64,000 nucleotides of DNA from Woeseiaceae bacterium. GTDB taxonomy: Bacteria; Pseudomonadota; Gammaproteobacteria; Steroidobacterales; Woeseiaceae. The translations under genes were made by a program, and so were the position numbers. Shown in pieces: positions 20,750 through 33,819 of this stretch. Under the pieces are notes generated by a model. It saw only the letters and a list, made by a program, of their open reading frames with translations, did no database searches and was not told the DNA's origin. The stretch is taken from assembly GCA_021773035.1 (NCBI GenBank), contig JAJFKU010000056.1, positions 1-64,000 of the forward strand, read 5' to 3'. How positions within the stretch are numbered: the first letter of the stretch is position 1; each line of letters begins with the position of its first letter.

Positions 20750-23700
20750 ATGGATAAGATCGACTCAGACGCCCTGCTTCGCCTAAACGGCTGGCTGCTC
20801 GATGCAGCGCGGTTCGAACTGCGGTGTGCGGACGAGACCCGGCGTATTCGACCCAAGGACCTGCTGGTACTGCAGTGTCTTATCGAAAATGCACCGCTGG
20901 TCGTTCCGAGAGCACTGTTACTCGATGCGGGGTGGCCGCGTGGTTTTGTCGATGGCGCCGTACTGGGGAACGCGATATCCCGTTTGCGGCAGCTATTGGG
21001 AGCGCCGAATACCGAGGTGATCGAAACCGTTCCGCGTAAAGGTTATCGCCTGACGGTGGAAGTCGAACGCATTTCCTCTCTGCCCGGCAAATCCTGGAAA
21101 CAGGGATCACCCTATCGCGGCTTTCAGGCGTTCAACGCAGAGTTTGCCCCGGTTTTCTTCGGCAGGTCAGCCGACGTCAACGCCATCCTTCGTGGCCTTG
21201 AACAGCAGAGCGCCCTGGGCCGGGGCTTCATGGTGCTGGTCGGCCCAAGCGGAACCGGAAAAACATCCCTGATTCACGCCGGCGTAATCCCCGCACTCAG
21301 GCTGGCCGACGCGGGCTGCCTGGCCGCTGACTGGCGTGTGGTCCACTGTCTGCCGGCGGTGAACCGTGACTCGATGGCCAGCGAACTCCTGACGAAGGTC
21401 TCGAGTGCGCTACACCTTGATCCGCAGAAACGCGCGACGCAATCCGGTGCAGAACCCGGTGTCGATGCGTTTCTTTCCTTGTTGCCGGATGACCAGCCCC
21501 GCGAAACACGATTGCTGATTGTCCTGGATTCGCTGGAGTCGTTGTTCAGCGGGCGGCAGCCGGATCAGCGCGAAGCGTTCTTCGAGCTGCTGCACGAGTT
21601 GACCCGCAGCGGGCGCTACTGGGTGTTGGCGGGTATACGGAGTAATTTCTACCAGGACTTCATGAACTCTCCATCGTTGGTCGCGATGAAAGGCCTGCAT
21701 GGGCAATACGACGTCGAGAGCCCGGGAGCCGCACACCTCGGGCACATCATACGCAAACCGGCGGAGCTCGCGGGAGTGACGTTCGAGCATCATTCGACTG
21801 AAGGCGTTTCACTGGACGACACCCTGCTCGCCTACGCAGTCAATCATCCGGAAGTGCTTCCACAGCTGCAGTTTATCCTCGATGAGCTTTACACCGCACG
21901 CACGCCCGATAAGGTATTGACCTACAGCGCCTATGAAAAACTCGGCGGGCTCGGACAAGCCACGGGGCGACGTGCCGAGCAGGTTTTTCTGTCGCTGACG
22001 CAGACCGTGCAACAGGAGTTGCCGTTTGTGCTGAGCAAACTGGTCGGCAGTTCCGGTCTGCACGACACCCGGTTCTCGAGGCAGTTTCCGCGCATGCAGG
22101 ACGTCGCGACCAATCACCGGCGCGCGGAACTGGTCGAGCAATTCGTCTCGGCACGGCTGTTCGTAGCCGACAGAATAAACGACGAAGCGGTCGTAACCGT
22201 TGTACACGAAGCCGTGTTCCGGCATTGGCGGCGCGCGCACGAAGTACTGGAGTCGAACCGGGAGTTGCTCGTCCTCGCGGGGCGCTTACGCGCAGCCTGC
22301 TCGACCTGGGTAGAGAAACAGCGCTCGCCCGCTTATCTGCTTGCGAGCGGGCCACTACAGGAGACCGACAAGGTACTTCGCGACGAGACGGCCGAAATCT
22401 CGGCCGTTGAGCAGGAGTTTGTCGAGGCATCGAGAAAACTCGCTAACCGGCACAGGCGGCTGCGGCACTTTGGCATTGGCGCAATGGTCTGCCTGACGCT
22501 GCTCGCCAGCGGACTTGCCGTAACCGCCCTGATACAGCGACATCACGCTGCGCAGGAGGCGCAGCATGCCGAGGCGGTCACCAGCTTCATCATTGGCCTG
22601 TTTGAGCTTGCCGATCCGGTACAGATGAAATCGGGCGAAACCTCTGCACAGCAAGTCATTGACATGGGCGCCCGGCAACTGGCCTTGCAGCATGACCAAC
22701 CGGCCGGCATTAGGGCTTCGCTGTTCCAGACTATCGGCAAGGTATACCTGAGCCTGGGCCAGTTTGAGGCCGCGGAGAAGAACCTTGATCGTGCTCTGCA
22801 ACTACGGCGCACCATCGCCGACAGACGGGGCGCAGCGGAAACACTCAACGCGCTTGGGAAACTGTCTTACCAGACCAGTGACTACGATGCGTCGGAAACC
22901 CACTACCAGAGTGCGCTGGCGGAACTGGATGCCGACAACCAGTCCCTGTCGGGTCTGTACGCCGATACGCTGAACAGTTTTGGCGAACTCACCGCTGCGC
23001 GCGGAGACTACGACCGCGCACTTGGCATACATCGCAATGCCCTCGAAATTCGCCGCCAGCTATTCGGTAACGACAGCTCCGCAGCAGCGACAAGTCTGCA
23101 GAACATCGCCGGCGTGCAGCGCCGTAACGGAGACCTTGCGCAGGCGGAGGAAAACTATCGCCGCGCGATCGAGCTGCAACAGCGCCACCTGGGGCCCAGG
23201 CATGCGGAGGTTGGTACTGCACGCGCCAATCTCGGTCTGCTGCTGACCGAACTCGAGCGTCCGGACGACGCCGAGTTCGAGCTGTTGCAGGCGCTGGAGA
23301 TTCGCAAAGCCGTGTACGGCCCGGAACACTCGCAGACGGCAAATAGCCTACACAACCTGGCGGCACTCGTATTCAAACAGAAAGACTATGTTCGTGCAGA
23401 GCCGTTACTTCGCGAGTCGCTGGCGGTGCACCAGGGGATCTACGGTAACGATCATGTTTCTGTCGCCTACAACCGGAACAACCTCGGCACCTTGTTGCTG
23501 GAGACCGAACGCCCGGACGAGGCGACACCACAGTTCACCGCGGCATTCGAGACCCTGCAGCGCTTACTCGGCGAGGCCCATCCGAACACGGCGCTTATCC
23601 GGGCGAATCTTGCCAAGGCAATGCTGGCAGCCGGCGAAGCGGCGTCGGCGAATGTACATGCTGAAGCCGCCGTTACCGCGCTGACCGAGGCTTTGCCCGA

Positions 23701-23929
23701 AAAACACTGGCGCCTGTCGGTGGTGCGAGGTATTTACGCATCGACGCTGGCACACCTGGGCGACTTCGAGCGCGCCGATTCCATTCTGCAGCAAAGCAGA
23801 ACGGAACTCGTTGCCTCGCACGGCGCCGATAGCGACGTCGTTTCGCAAATTGATACAAAGCTGGCGGATCTTGCGAAGCGGCGTCGGCAACAGGAGGGCG
23901 GAAGAACAGCCGAGAAATCAGGGTTCTGA
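20750..23929 (+). CDS. Membrane regulator: winged-helix DNA-binding domain, STAND NTPase, transmembrane helix, TPR array
   Basis: The protein has 1059 residues in a mosaic order. Residues 10-103 are an OmpR/CadC-type winged helix (RIRPKDLLVLQCLIE, AISRLRQLLG, IETVPRKGYRLTVEVE). Residues about 118-520 are an nSTAND1-type P-loop NTPase, with Walker A GPSGTGKTS near 165 and a Walker B-like LLIVLDSLE. One transmembrane helix lies near 572-594. From about 640 to 1040 there are roughly ten tetratricopeptide repeats (AAEKNLDRALQLRR, AEENYRRAIELQQRHLG). The winged helix and NTPase would face the cytoplasm and the TPRs the periplasm. That suggests a one-component sensor, like CadC, that acts on transcription from the membrane. 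The two lipoproteins just upstream are candidates for a periplasmic partner or target. Confidence 0.85.
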   Translation: MDKIDSDALLRLNGWLLDAARFELRCADETRRIRPKDLLVLQCLIENAPLVVPRALLLDAGWPRGFVDGAVLGNAISRLRQLLGAPNTEVIETVPRKGYRLTVEVERISSLPGKSWKQGSPYRGFQAFNAEFAPVFFGRSADVNAILRGLEQQSALGRGFMVLVGPSGTGKTSLIHAGVIPALRLADAGCLAADWRVVHCLPAVNRDSMASELLTKVSSALHLDPQKRATQSGAEPGVDAFLSLLPDDQPRETRLLIVLDSLESLFSGRQPDQREAFFELLHELTRSGRYWVLAGIRSNFYQDFMNSPSLVAMKGLHGQYDVESPGAAHLGHIIRKPAELAGVTFEHHSTEGVSLDDTLLAYAVNHPEVLPQLQFILDELYTARTPDKVLTYSAYEKLGGLGQATGRRAEQVFLSLTQTVQQELPFVLSKLVGSSGLHDTRFSRQFPRMQDVATNHRRAELVEQFVSARLFVADRINDEAVVTVVHEAVFRHWRRAHEVLESNRELLVLAGRLRAACSTWVEKQRSPAYLLASGPLQETDKVLRDETAEISAVEQEFVEASRKLANRHRRLRHFGIGAMVCLTLLASGLAVTALIQRHHAAQEAQHAEAVTSFIIGLFELADPVQMKSGETSAQQVIDMGARQLALQHDQPAGIRASLFQTIGKVYLSLGQFEAAEKNLDRALQLRRTIADRRGAAETLNALGKLSYQTSDYDASETHYQSALAELDADNQSLSGLYADTLNSFGELTAARGDYDRALGIHRNALEIRRQLFGNDSSAAATSLQNIAGVQRRNGDLAQAEENYRRAIELQQRHLGPRHAEVGTARANLGLLLTELERPDDAEFELLQALEIRKAVYGPEHSQTANSLHNLAALVFKQKDYVRAEPLLRESLAVHQGIYGNDHVSVAYNRNNLGTLLLETERPDEATPQFTAAFETLQRLLGEAHPNTALIRANLAKAMLAAGEAASANVHAEAAVTALTEALPEKHWRLSVVRGIYASTLAHLGDFERADSILQQSRTELVASHGADSDVVSQIDTKLADLAKRRRQQEGGRTAEKSGF

Positions 23930-27581: not shown

Positions 27582-27728
27582 CAGTCTACATTACAACGCG
27601 CCGTACCGCAAAGTCACGGCCGACGCTCCTGCCGATGCTAGGATTAAGAAAATATTGGAATGGGCTGCCAGGCTCACACCGGCCGGTCGTCGAACATAAT
27701 TTCAGCCGTAGAAGTGCTCAATCACGCT

Positions 27729-28088
27729 ATGCAATCGCCGGAAAACGACATCCAGAATCGAACACCTGTATGGGACGCTCTACAGATGTTGTTCATGGAT
27801 ACGGACGTAACGCTTTGTTACGACCATATTGTTGAGACGTGTAAGTCTTCGAAATACACGGTCGATGACATAGAAGAGATACTGTTTAACGAGGTAATGC
27901 CGGCCGTTCGATTCAACCTGTTGATGCTCCCGGCCCCGGAGTGGTGCGGCTTTGACGTGGAGTGGCTCAAAAAGCGTGTATTAAAAAAGCACTGCTTCGA
28001 AAGGCGGCGGCCGCTGTGGTTTCGGCGCTACACGGATGACCATTGGAAAAAACTCAGACCGAGAATCGAGGTCACAGCGAATAAGTAA
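27729..28088 (+). CDS. DUF7079 family protein
   Basis: About 119 residues from the ATG at 27729. The upstream in-frame ATG at 27660 adds 23 residues of no family character, so I prefer the later start. The sequence has the DUF7079 pattern: PVWDALQMLFMDTDV, YTVDDIEEILFNEVMPAVRFN and EWCGFDVEWLKKRVL. It is a small, probably cytoplasmic, helical protein of unknown role. Its neighbours (purine genes, M48 peptidase) give no functional hint. Confidence 0.65.
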   Translation: MQSPENDIQNRTPVWDALQMLFMDTDVTLCYDHIVETCKSSKYTVDDIEEILFNEVMPAVRFNLLMLPAPEWCGFDVEWLKKRVLKKHCFERRRPLWFRRYTDDHWKKLRPRIEVTANK

Positions 28089-28207
28089 GCGGCTAAAAAT
28101 GACTTCGGCAAATCGACAGCATTCGTGCGCTGAGGTATCTTGTTGCCTGGGAATAACAAGTAAACATAAAAACCCACGACCTTAGCGGTCTACCCAGGGA
28201 GTGAATC

Positions 28208-29422
28208 ATGGTCCTCGTCTACAAGAATGAGAAGATCCTGTTCGCGATAGCCGCAGTCATTTCTACATTGTTTTGGCTTGGCATCATCGGCATAACCTTT
28301 GGCATTGTCCTGATCTATCTTCTACTGGGCCTGGTAGCCTATTTGTTCGCTCAGTCCGGATTTATCTCCTATATCAAAGGTAACGGAGTCAAAGTAAGCG
28401 CTGCACAATTTCCAGACCTTCAAGATAGTCTGCACAAGTGTTGCGACAAAATCGGCCTGGATGAGGCTCCCGACATGTATTTACTGCGAGCAGATTATTT
28501 CAACGCGCTTGCAACCAAGTTTCTCGGCCGGAACTTCGTCATTTTGTTTACAGACGTTGTCGATGCGCTCGCGGATGAACCGGCCGCGATCGATTTCTAT
28601 ATTGGACATGAACTGGGTCATATTCATCGCAAGCATCTGAAATGGGGCGGCTTCCTGTTCCCCGCGTTGCTGCTGCCGGTACTTGGCGCCGGCTATCGGC
28701 GTGCCCAGGAGTACACCTGCGACAGGTATGGAGCACACTGCTGCGACGCTGATGGAAACGTCTACTCGGCGCTCGCGGCGATGTCCGCCGGCGATACCCG
28801 CTGGAAGCAGTTGAACGTTTCCGCCTATGCGGACCAGGTAATTTCAACGTGCGAATTCTGGATGTCGTTTCACGAATTCACCAATGATTATCCGTGGCAA
28901 TCAAAGCGTATGGCTGCCGCGCTGGCATTTCGCGAAAACACGGACGTCGAGTTTCCACGCAGGAGTTTCTTCGCCGGGCTACTTTCGATGTTCGTGCCCC
29001 GCGTGGGTATTGGCGGCGGCGGGGTATCTTTGCTGGTCGTCATTGCGATGATCGGCATTCTCGCCGCGATTGCTATTCCTGCGTACCAGGACTTCACAGT
29101 TCGTGCCCAGGTTTCAGAGGGACTATTCCTGTCGGATGGTGCAAAAGCCGCGGTAACCGAGTTTGTAAGAGAGTACCGTGAGTGGCCGGCGGATAACGCG
29201 GCTGCCGGACTGATGCCCGAAGGCGATATTGCCGGCAAATACATCACCGAGGTGTCCGTCATCGACGGCGTCGTTGTCGTTGTCTTCGGAAATAATGCGC
29301 ATGCGAACATCGTGGGGAAGACGCTGATATTTTCACCCGACGCTGCGAATCTACCGACCGTTACCTGGGAATGTTACAGCACTGAAATAGCTGACAAGTG
29401 GTTGCCTGCGGCCTGCCGCTGA
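28208..29422 (+). CDS. M48 metallopeptidase fused to a type IV pilin-like domain
   Basis: The protein has 404 residues. Residues 10-55 are hydrophobic and hold one or two membrane helices. An M48 Zn-peptidase domain follows, with HELGH at 134-138 and the downstream QEYTCDRYG segment supplying the third Zn ligand. From about residue 268 the sequence changes to a pilin: [20 protein letters not shown], then [14 protein letters not shown], a pilin-type soluble domain and two Cys near the end (WECYS...AACR) that could form the pilin disulfide. The usual prepilin cleavage motif (GFTLIE) is replaced by GGGGVSLL, so processing by PilD is doubtful. The ribosome site GGAG lies 8 nt before the ATG. The protein may use the pilin helix as a membrane anchor. 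Confidence 0.85.
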
Positions 29423-32062: not shown

Positions 32063-33340
32063 CTAATTCATCCACAATCCCGGCAACCAGGTGACGATCG
32101 CCGGGAAAGTGCTGATCAACAACAGTGTCATTAGATTGGCAATGAGAAACGGCGCCGCCCCACGAAATACCTCTCCGATGCCGAGCCGCGAAATGGCTGC
32201 ACCCACGTTGAGGCAGTTACCGACTGGCGGCGTACAGGCACCAACTGCGAGTCCGGATATCAGTACAATTCCGAACTGTAGAGGGGACACGCCTGCTGCT
32301 TGTGCCGCCGGCAACAGGGTCGGTGTAAGCAGCAAAATTGCCGGGCTTACGTCGATAAACGTGCCAAGGAAAAGGACGATCAGGTTGATCAGCATCAGAA
32401 CCGCGATCGGGCCCAGATCAAGATCGATAACGAATGCCGCTATTTCCTCGGGAACGCGTTCCAGCACCAGTATCCACACAAACAGCTGGGAAAACGCGAT
32501 GATCATCATGATCTTTCCGCTCATCAGCGCGGCGTTGCGCAACGACTCCGGTAGTTTCTTGAACGATTTCGTTCCAGCGATTATCAGCCCGACCAGCAGC
32601 GCAATAACGACGCCGACAGCGGCAGACTCTGTTGCTGTCGCAATACCGAATGTCACCGAACCGACAACAACCACGGGTAACATAATTACCGCGACCGAAC
32701 CGATAAATTTCTGCGCCATCGTCTCATCGGTCGGCACACGCGTTTCACGCGGATAATTACGACGGCGCGCAACTGCGTACATTATAGCCAGCTGAAGAAC
32801 GCCAATCATTAAGCCCGGGATAATCCCGCCGATGAACAGCTTGCCAATCGACTCCTGCGCAACGATGGCGTACAGAACGATCGGAATACTCGGCGGGATA
32901 ATCATGCCCATCGTCGACGATGCGACAGTTACACCGGCGGCGACGGCCTTGGAATAGCCACGTCGTTGCATCTCAGGGATCATTATCGAGCCAATCGACG
33001 CAGTATCCGACGTCGAAGAGCCTGAAATTCCGCCGAAAATCATGCTCGCCGAAATATTTACCATGCCGAGCCCGCCGCGCAGGCGACCGACCAGCATCAT
33101 CGACAGGTCGATCAGCCGCGCGGTAATACCGCCGGCGTTCATCACCTGCCCCATCAAAATGAACAATGGCAGCGAGATCAGCGCGTAATTGTTAAGTCCC
33201 GAGAATACGCGTTGTGGCATTGCGACCAGCAGCTCCGGGCTGTAAATCAAAAGATAGGTGAGACTCGACAACCCCAGGGCGTAAGCAATCGGGATTCCGA
33301 GGACGAGAAACACGAAAAGCGCGAGGAAAAGAACGGCCAT
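32063..33340 (-). CDS. dctM: TRAP transporter large permease
   Basis: The protein has 425 residues and about 12-13 membrane helices, typical of DctM. Motifs include FVFLVLGIPIAYALG at the N-terminus, SMIFGGISGSSTSDTASIGS and GMIIPPSIPIVLYA in the middle, and the GTFIDVSPAILLLTPTLLP segment. It forms the Na+-driven import channel with DctQ and the binding protein DctP. The three genes are consecutive, separated by 2 nt or overlapping, so they form one complete TRAP set. Substrates of the family are usually C4-dicarboxylates, sialic or uronic acids and other organic acids. Confidence 0.95.
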   Translation of the reverse strand: MAVLFLALFVFLVLGIPIAYALGLSSLTYLLIYSPELLVAMPQRVFSGLNNYALISLPLFILMGQVMNAGGITARLIDLSMMLVGRLRGGLGMVNISASMIFGGISGSSTSDTASIGSIMIPEMQRRGYSKAVAAGVTVASSTMGMIIPPSIPIVLYAIVAQESIGKLFIGGIIPGLMIGVLQLAIMYAVARRRNYPRETRVPTDETMAQKFIGSVAVIMLPVVVVGSVTFGIATATESAAVGVVIALLVGLIIAGTKSFKKLPESLRNAALMSGKIMMIIAFSQLFVWILVLERVPEEIAAFVIDLDLGPIAVLMLINLIVLFLGTFIDVSPAILLLTPTLLPAAQAAGVSPLQFGIVLISGLAVGACTPPVGNCLNVGAAISRLGIGEVFRGAAPFLIANLMTLLLISTFPAIVTWLPGLWMN

Positions 33341-33342
33341 TG

Positions 33343-33819
33343 CTACTTTCCGCTTCTGACAGCAGCAACCGCCGCGAGCAGCTGTCTACAGCAATAGGCG
33401 AAGCCAAGACCGCTGCCGATCGGTACGCTGATCTGGGCAACCCATTGCGGCAGGCCCATTGCAGGCATTAGAAAGTTACCCGTTTGCCTGATCCAGACAA
33501 TCGCGTACAGCAACAGCAGAAAATTGATACCTGCTAAAAAAAGCCATCGAACGACAGCAATAGCCTGGCGCGGCCCGCGAGCTAACTTTTCGGTGAAAAA
33601 TCGCACCGCGATGTGCTCGTCGTCACGCAGTGAGATTGCCGCGGCGATGAGCGAAACGTAGACAAACGCGACCAGTGTTGCTTCGTTACCGCCGATGATG
33701 GTGCTATGAAACACGTACCTGAGGACGACGAGTAAAAACACGATCGACAAGATCGCTGCGAGCGCAACCTGTAGCAGCAGATTCAAAACACGAACGACGC
33801 TCCCGGTGCGCTCAGTCAT
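33343..33819 (-). CDS. dctQ: TRAP transporter small permease
   Basis: The protein has 158 residues and four membrane helices, normal for DctQ (ILSIVFLLVVLRYVFHSTI, TLVAFVYVSLIAAAISLRDD, WLFLAGINFLLLLYAIVWI). The EHIAVRFF segment between the second and third helices is a family hallmark. Its start overlaps the DctP stop in an ATGA arrangement, and its stop lies 2 nt before DctM, so translation of the three is coupled. Confidence 0.93.
   Translation of the reverse strand: MTERTGSVVRVLNLLLQVALAAILSIVFLLVVLRYVFHSTIIGGNEATLVAFVYVSLIAAAISLRDDEHIAVRFFTEKLARGPRQAIAVVRWLFLAGINFLLLLYAIVWIRQTGNFLMPAMGLPQWVAQISVPIGSGLGFAYCCRQLLAAVAAVRSGK

Follow-up and report, generated by a model that had tools for sequence, protein, structure and literature searches.

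Could a type IV pilin serve as the last membrane helix and the outer arm of a membrane-bound zinc protease? This question is raised by a single gene in the stretch of DNA analysed here (the window, 64,000 nucleotides, which are positions 1 to 64,000 of the forward strand of contig JAJFKU010000056.1, assembly GCA_021773035.1, from a Woeseiaceae bacterium). The original prediction, made from the letters of the sequence, was that a peptidase is fused in this gene to a pilin-like domain without the GFTLIE processing motif. We found that Pfam indeed matches both parts: Peptidase_M48 scored 59.5 bits against a cut-off of 20.3, in two stretches of which the better covers residues 66–144, and Pilin (PF00114) scored 70.3 bits against a cut-off of 22, with residues 298–404 aligned to positions 1–108 of the 108 in the profile, which makes the match complete. 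A hydrophobic helix and a conserved Cys had also been pointed out. Both are present, and this description proved too modest, as a whole pilin domain is there. No domains other than M48 and Pilin were found in the fusion protein by Pfam at E 1, and M56 was not matched. The top match among solved structures in a phmmer search was Neisseria PilE (102.6 bits, E 2.4e-28, residues 273–377), and other PilE structure entries align as far as residue 389. The GFTLIE prepilin site is not present in the fusion; mature pilin positions 1–5 read GGGVS, and thus Phe1 and Glu5 are both lost. The Pfam score, together with the HExxH motif and the downstream Glu, places the protein with the M48 family, and proteolysis itself is predicted. 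The NCBIfam HtpX equivalog cut-offs were not reached (best 28.4 vs 341 bits). Most likely, judging from the sequence and the model, the gene encodes a putative inner-membrane M48-type zinc protease (Table 1).

Table 1. Features of the M48-pilin fusion gene, in positions of the window.
Feature	Positions	Strand	Basis
M48-pilin fusion gene, 404 aa plus stop, ATG start	28208..29422	+	ORF and Pfam
AGGGAG, ribosome-binding-like, 5' of the ATG	28196..28201	+	Sequence
N-terminal helical hairpin, residues 6–59, two predicted membrane helices	28223..28384	+	AlphaFold2 helices 6–30 and 33–59; hydropathy
M48 peptidase domain, approximately residues 66–242	28403..28933	+	Pfam PF01435; fold match to ZMPSTE24, BlaR1, BepA, HtpX
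Zinc motif HELGH, residues 134–138	28607..28621	+	HExxH in every one of the 19 rows
Glu168 in EYTCD, expected third zinc ligand	28709..28711	+	Kept in all 19 rows
Long pilin helix alpha1 with its glycine-rich start, residues 270–323, GGGVS for FTLIE	29015..29176	+	AlphaFold2 helix 271–323; PilE alignment; position 5 acidic in none of the 19 rows
Conserved pilin hinge Gly14–Tyr24, residues 283–293	29054..29086	+	75.5% mean pairwise identity, 19 rows; overlap with the segment unfolded in assembled pili (excerpt of PMC5059446)
Pilin globular head, residues 324–404	29177..29419	+	PF00114; VIA-align match to 4v1j (Z 16.1, 112 residues)
Cys389, first of the C-terminal pair	29372..29374	+	Sequence
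Cys403, second of the C-terminal pair	29414..29416	+	Sequence

How widely does this join occur? With the whole protein as the query, full-length relatives were found in 2 of 59 other genomes, G025 (60%) and G043 (52%); the whole protein was also matched by two named Methylobacter records and by a distant locus (L039) that was excluded from the counts (28% identity). An alignment of the M48 part, searched at E 1e-25, identified matches within the order (7 of 296 genomes), the class (6 of 369) and the phylum (8 of 398), with the own genome counted each time. Because the alignment used as the query ends before the pilin helix, save for a few glycines, the helix was not demanded in those searches; the loci of the window, G025, G043 and Methylobacter were the ones found with the whole protein. 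Weak hits to the M48 part only were left uncounted (G056:C7 and G043:C129, both without the pilin, and G051:C3). This resulted in 22 counted loci from 22 genomes, namely the own locus, G025, G043, the two Methylobacter records and the further E 1e-25 hits. The proposed check for the two-domain layout in other genomes found it in 19 of these 22 related loci, which carry the pilin helix, and the helix is absent in L051, L082 and L083. In the tree of the M48 part, the 19 fusion loci form one group (98/97) with these three outside it, and in the pilin-free relative L082 the third membrane helix looks ordinary. The distribution of the fusion across genomes is thin and patchy, and the M48 part matched only 1 of 72,556 plasmid records (Persicobacter, 28% identity). 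Among the literature matches listed (titles and abstract openings, with subscription papers mostly outside), an M48-pilin fusion was not found. Taken together, the sequences and the model describe an M48 protease subfamily with a pilin-derived third helix, whose function we infer. The M48 protein of G499 (L051:995-2140, + strand) has a C-terminus that resembles T2SS protein G (PF08334, E 0.0014, 19.1 bits, below the cut-off of 21), which hints at a second pairing of M48 with a pilin-type domain. Modelled alone, this C-terminus had a pLDDT of 43, too low for use, and a search of two genomes for kin of the protein returned only itself.

The structure of the joined protein was predicted with AlphaFold2 using 19 alignment rows (mean pLDDT 86, pTM 0.68). 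In the model, two helices (residues 6–30 and 33–59) are followed by a mixed catalytic domain, a single helix (271–323) and four strands. Local confidence was lowest at residues 261–280 (block means 67 and 61) and was 73–78 at residues 331–370, and the arrangement of the protease half relative to the pilin half was not fixed by the model. We compared the folds with VIA-align, which re-ranks Foldseek hits only, such that folds absent from that list stay possible. Neisseria pilins ranked first, with 4v1j at Z 16.1 (rmsd 1.7, 112 residues aligned, 39% identity) and 2hi2 at Z 15.7 (rmsd 2.0, 133 residues aligned from residue 270). The N-terminal part matched ZMPSTE24 (Z 10.1, rmsd 4.5, 192 aligned), BlaR1 (Z 9.6, rmsd 4.7, 182 aligned), BepA (Z 9.6) and HtpX 3cqb (Z 7.0). 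It had been considered that the pilin-like part might be a transmembrane anchor with no pilin fold. However, a pilin helix of 53 residues and a beta-sheet head were both modelled, and this predicted pilin fold indicates that the part is more than a membrane anchor. Four of the 19 relatives (L037, L038, L048 and L077) keep the helix only and have no head after it.

The pattern of conservation is informative as to which portions of the pilin the family has retained. The catalytic residues H134, E135, H138 (HExxH) and E168, the last of which we take to be the third zinc ligand by analogy with M48, are kept in all 19 fusion rows. An acid at pilin position 5 occurs in none of them; a glycine-rich start is found instead. 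Mean pairwise identity among the 19 rows amounts to 55% for the catalytic domain; the pilin helix has 58% (residues 273–293) and 62% (residues 280–300), and the remainder of the tail 25%. The helix is therefore as conserved as the catalytic domain, which is more than a mere anchor should need. Within the helix, identity is 38% at positions 6–10, 40% at 11–13, 75.5% at 14–24 and 51% at 25–31, compared with 94%, 96%, 88% and 61%, respectively, in canonical pilins (17 of 45, picked mostly outside the genus). An excerpt of PMC5059446 describes a stretch of alpha1, including Gly14–Pro22, as unfolding in assembled type IV pili. The aligned residues show that the family dropped the processing and packing residues and retained the meltable hinge. 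As for the head, the Cys pair is missing from one head-bearing row, L044, and L049 has two extra Cys. The L044 gene (L044:1492-2796, +), the M48-pilin of G265, seems to be out of frame near its C-terminus, without the Cys pair of its relative L046.

Could the pilin part nevertheless have been exapted as no more than a third membrane anchor that carries a passenger domain, on an HtpX-like protease that is unrelated to pili? This is quite possible, if on balance doubtful. The low identity past the hinge and the headless rows speak for it, and so do the scanned neighbours, which include no pilus gene, and the weak co-occurrence with pili (see below). On the other hand, an anchor should not need Gly14, Ala17, Ala18, Pro22 and Tyr24, which are kept in 17, 19, 19, 19 and 19 of the 19 rows, respectively; furthermore, heads are found in 15 of the 19 rows, and 14 of these 15 have the Cys pair.

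The reading that we place first, and hold tentatively, is that of an HtpX/Ste24-like protease with its active site in the cytoplasm, in which an uncut pilin would supply the third helix and a periplasmic head that docks onto or senses a partner. The mean net charge of the 19 rows is +1.95 before the pilin helix (residues 244–268) and +0.42 after it (residues 294–312), which fits an N-in, C-out topology with the M48 domain in the cytoplasm and the head in the periplasm, and the prevalence of the Cys pair in the heads likewise fits a periplasmic location. It is from such features that we infer the side of the membrane on which each part lies. The two N-terminal helices would hold the catalytic domain on the cytoplasmic face, and the third membrane helix would be alpha1 of a type IV pilin without Phe1 and Glu5. 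With these two residues lost, PilD should not cut the pilin helix and no polymerisation is expected. The helix would carry the head into the periplasm, where the head or the retained meltable hinge (Gly14–Pro22) may dock onto or sense pilins or another periplasmic partner. Docking or sensing would then control or aim proteolysis on the cytoplasmic side, much as the extracytoplasmic sensor of BlaR1 governs its protease. A pilin may be the partner in question, which goes a step further than docking or sensing itself. That the join is kept in related bacteria suggests a present role for the pilin part as hinge, sensor or docking arm. However, the head, being poorly conserved and missing from some rows, cannot be needed in every member, and the loss of the filament-packing positions 1–13 makes a weaker case for direct pilin–pilin contact. 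Also counting against a sensor are the scanned neighbours, without a pilus gene, and a co-occurrence with pili that is modestly above background.

Compared with known systems, the fusion shares with HtpX and Ste24/ZMPSTE24 (M48) the HExxH and downstream Glu, the membrane helices and the catalytic fold, but it has a single hairpin at its N-terminus, and its third helix comes from a pilin. In BlaR1/MecR1, membrane helices lead to a cytoplasm-facing metalloprotease, a last membrane helix and an extracytoplasmic domain; in the fusion, according to the model and hydropathy, a hydrophobic helix and then a C-terminal domain likewise come after the metalloprotease domain, on predicted sides of the membrane. 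In BlaR1, as stated in an excerpt of PMC9834060, acylation of the sensor activates the protease domain that faces the cytoplasm. The likeness of the fusion to BlaR1 is one of fold and layout only, with 7–9% identity and Z in the range that VIA-align calls common. BlaR1 and MecR1 belong to family M56 and have a penicillin-binding sensor and a repressor partner. Unlike them, the fusion has an M48 domain and a pilin head, and a partner gene was not found.

Is the fusion linked to pili at the level of genomes and gene neighbourhoods? Of the 22 genomes that contributed a counted M48 locus, 19 had a match to PilB over the cut-off; among the 19 whose locus has the pilin helix, the number was 17. The two exceptions are G179, in which different parts of PilB are matched on different contigs, and G774, which is 78% complete and has its best match below the cut-off. 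The background was 115 of 185 genomes in an even sample of the class, counted at an E limit of 1e-220, which is stricter than the cut-off and which the 17 positive fusion genomes pass as well. The enrichment (Fisher one-sided p 0.012, genomes treated without kinship correction; p 0.003 to 0.022 depending on whether shared or out-of-class genomes are dropped) lends weak support to the suggested co-occurrence with pilus genes. The own genome has a canonical pilin gene just upstream of pilB, on another contig. Close to the fusion itself, neighbouring genes were scanned with Pfam, 10 from the window and 10 from six relatives, and no pilus gene was found among them, the rest being inspected by eye.

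Furthermore, an all-against-all blast of the ORFs from 14 stretches (18–42.5 kb of the window, L052–L062, L037 and L038) revealed no widely shared neighbour gene. A group spanning eleven loci was the antisense reading of the fusion gene itself. An HD-domain gene adjoins the fusion in the two Methylobacter records and in G512, unnamed neighbour groups are shared by L059/L060/L062 and by L057/L061, and several neighbour genes are common to the close-relative pairs L055/L057, L037/L038 and L056/L058. Hemerythrin domains are joined to the HD domain in the Methylobacter neighbours (L037:6963-8540, +; L038:7042-8619, +), G562 has a hemerythrin as a separate protein beside the fusion (L062:7364-7816, +), and the HD-domain neighbour in G512 (L061:5783-7384, +) has a LuxR-type DNA-binding domain instead. 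TRAP transporter (permease) genes lie near the fusion in the window (32063-33819, −; 2.6 kb off, with genes between) and in G382 (L059:9115-11045, +; adjacent), which may be chance. A DUF7079 gene (84.2 bits) is located directly upstream in the window (27660-28088, +), and positions 20750-23929 (+) encode a protein of 1059 aa that combines many TPR repeats with an nSTAND1 NTPase and a transcription-regulator domain.

The history of the tails was examined separately from that of the protease. In the M48 tree, the window and G025 are sisters (100/97). In a tree of 68 pilin domains, on the other hand, the window tail falls among the pilins of its genus, nearest to two DUF2628-fused tails (92/66), the G025 tail pairs with the G043 tail (100/94), and the G512 tail pairs with a pilin of its own genome (98/84). 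The window head is 55.9% identical to the G036 pilin vs 29.6% to the G025 tail, whereas the M48 parts of the window and G025 are 69% identical. These comparisons suggest that tail heads may have been replaced from resident pilins. In AU tests, p was 0.41 with all 15 tails held together (0.46 without L049), 0.099 with window and G025 together, and 0.52 with window, G025 and G043 together. In the last case, the likelihood was slightly above that of the free tree, which means that the tail tree is poorly resolved, and exchange is not claimed. No near-copy of a resident pilin gene was found in the DNA near the helix; therefore, any exchange would be old.

These histories bear on another explanation, in which the protein would be an inner-membrane quality-control or processing protease for prepilins or pilins, whose pilin tail recruits pilins as substrates. 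The HtpX/Ste24-like fold with its intact zinc motif would suit such a role, and so would a window head that is nearer to a genus pilin than to the orthologue's tail and a G512 tail that groups with its own-genome pilin, as if tails were refreshed from resident pilins. We consider it unlikely, however: the AU tests do not reject a single origin of the 15 M48 tails, or firmly reject window and G025 as sisters, the nearest neighbours of the window tail are, with weak support, DUF2628-fused tails and no plain pilin, and the fusion gene is absent from most PilB-bearing genomes.

Similar uncut pilin tails also occur, within the same group, on membrane proteins unrelated to M48. Eleven long frames without M48 (at least 298 aa) were read among the matches in 60 genomes, the own genome included, and nine of them end in an uncut pilin tail. 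Since the fused tails were picked out with a pattern that requires the hinge, its presence in them carries no independent weight. According to Pfam, the tail follows DUF2628 membrane proteins in four genomes of the genus (L064:3055-4488, −; L065:1858-2751, +; L066:1998-2948, −; L067:2161-3132, +) and a DUF805 membrane protein in one locus (L073:2243-3148, −). In four others it follows a module of ~600 residues; L068 and L070 have Pfam matches to Pilin only, and L069 and L071 were grouped with them by eye. The L070 frame is in the own genome (G000:C48:220473-222713; L070:2474-4714, +), where 747 aa end in an uncut pilin (PF00114, 51.6 bits); its N-terminus is signal-peptide-like, which would reverse the orientation of the pilin helix in the membrane. 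Secreted-looking proteins with pilin-like heads but without the pilin helix are encoded at L072:1810-2805 (+) and L074:1568-2665 (−). In G265, a pilin-like head without the helix follows what look by eye like Sel1-type repeats (L108:562-1809, +).

The boldest version of the docking or sensing reading would make the pilin a signalling arm of a BlaR1-like protease, with the hinge relaying the condition of the pool of resident pilins, or tension or packing around it, to the protease on the cytoplasmic side, the head perhaps refreshed from resident pilins in at least two lineages, and the uncut tail reused on the DUF2628, DUF805 and ~600-residue module proteins. We regard this version as speculative and improbable.

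Could the fusion instead be built into a pilus or pseudopilus and display the peptidase, as was proposed at the outset? The pilin fold is complete, and the likeness to Neisseria PilE, a type IVa major pilin, includes the complete PF00114 match, the long alpha1 with Gly14 and Pro22 and the C-terminal Cys pair. However, unlike PilE, the fusion has no leader, no GFTLIE and no Glu5, and it should not be processed or polymerise as pilins normally do. With Phe1 and Glu5 missing in 19 of 19 rows, and with the N-terminus of the helix running on from the catalytic domain and two further predicted membrane helices, such that position 1 is preceded by ~270 residues of membrane protease, incorporation of this kind is very improbable, and the loss of pilin positions 1 and 5 in every row led us to reject the pilus subunit as a candidate. 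In modular minor pilins, an excerpt of PMC10191384 describes an unrelated domain grafted onto a filament subunit. Both cases combine a pilin with an unrelated domain, but in the fusion the extra domain stands N-terminal to the helix, and the pilin has no processing site. Finally, a merger of two genes by an assembly or sequencing error, which would have undone the prediction, is ruled out for practical purposes by the same join in 18 other genomes, two of which are the named Methylobacter records.

What would such a protein mean? For annotation, a PF00114 match that ends a long protein should not by itself be read as a pilus subunit. Even if the function of the fusion is unrelated to pili, its pilin helix and head can be a reusable C-terminal membrane module, and what selection retains is the meltable hinge rather than the end that serves packing or processing. 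For pilus biology, a putative protease with an unprocessable copy of a pilin would make it testable how cells gauge their pool of unassembled pilins in the inner membrane.
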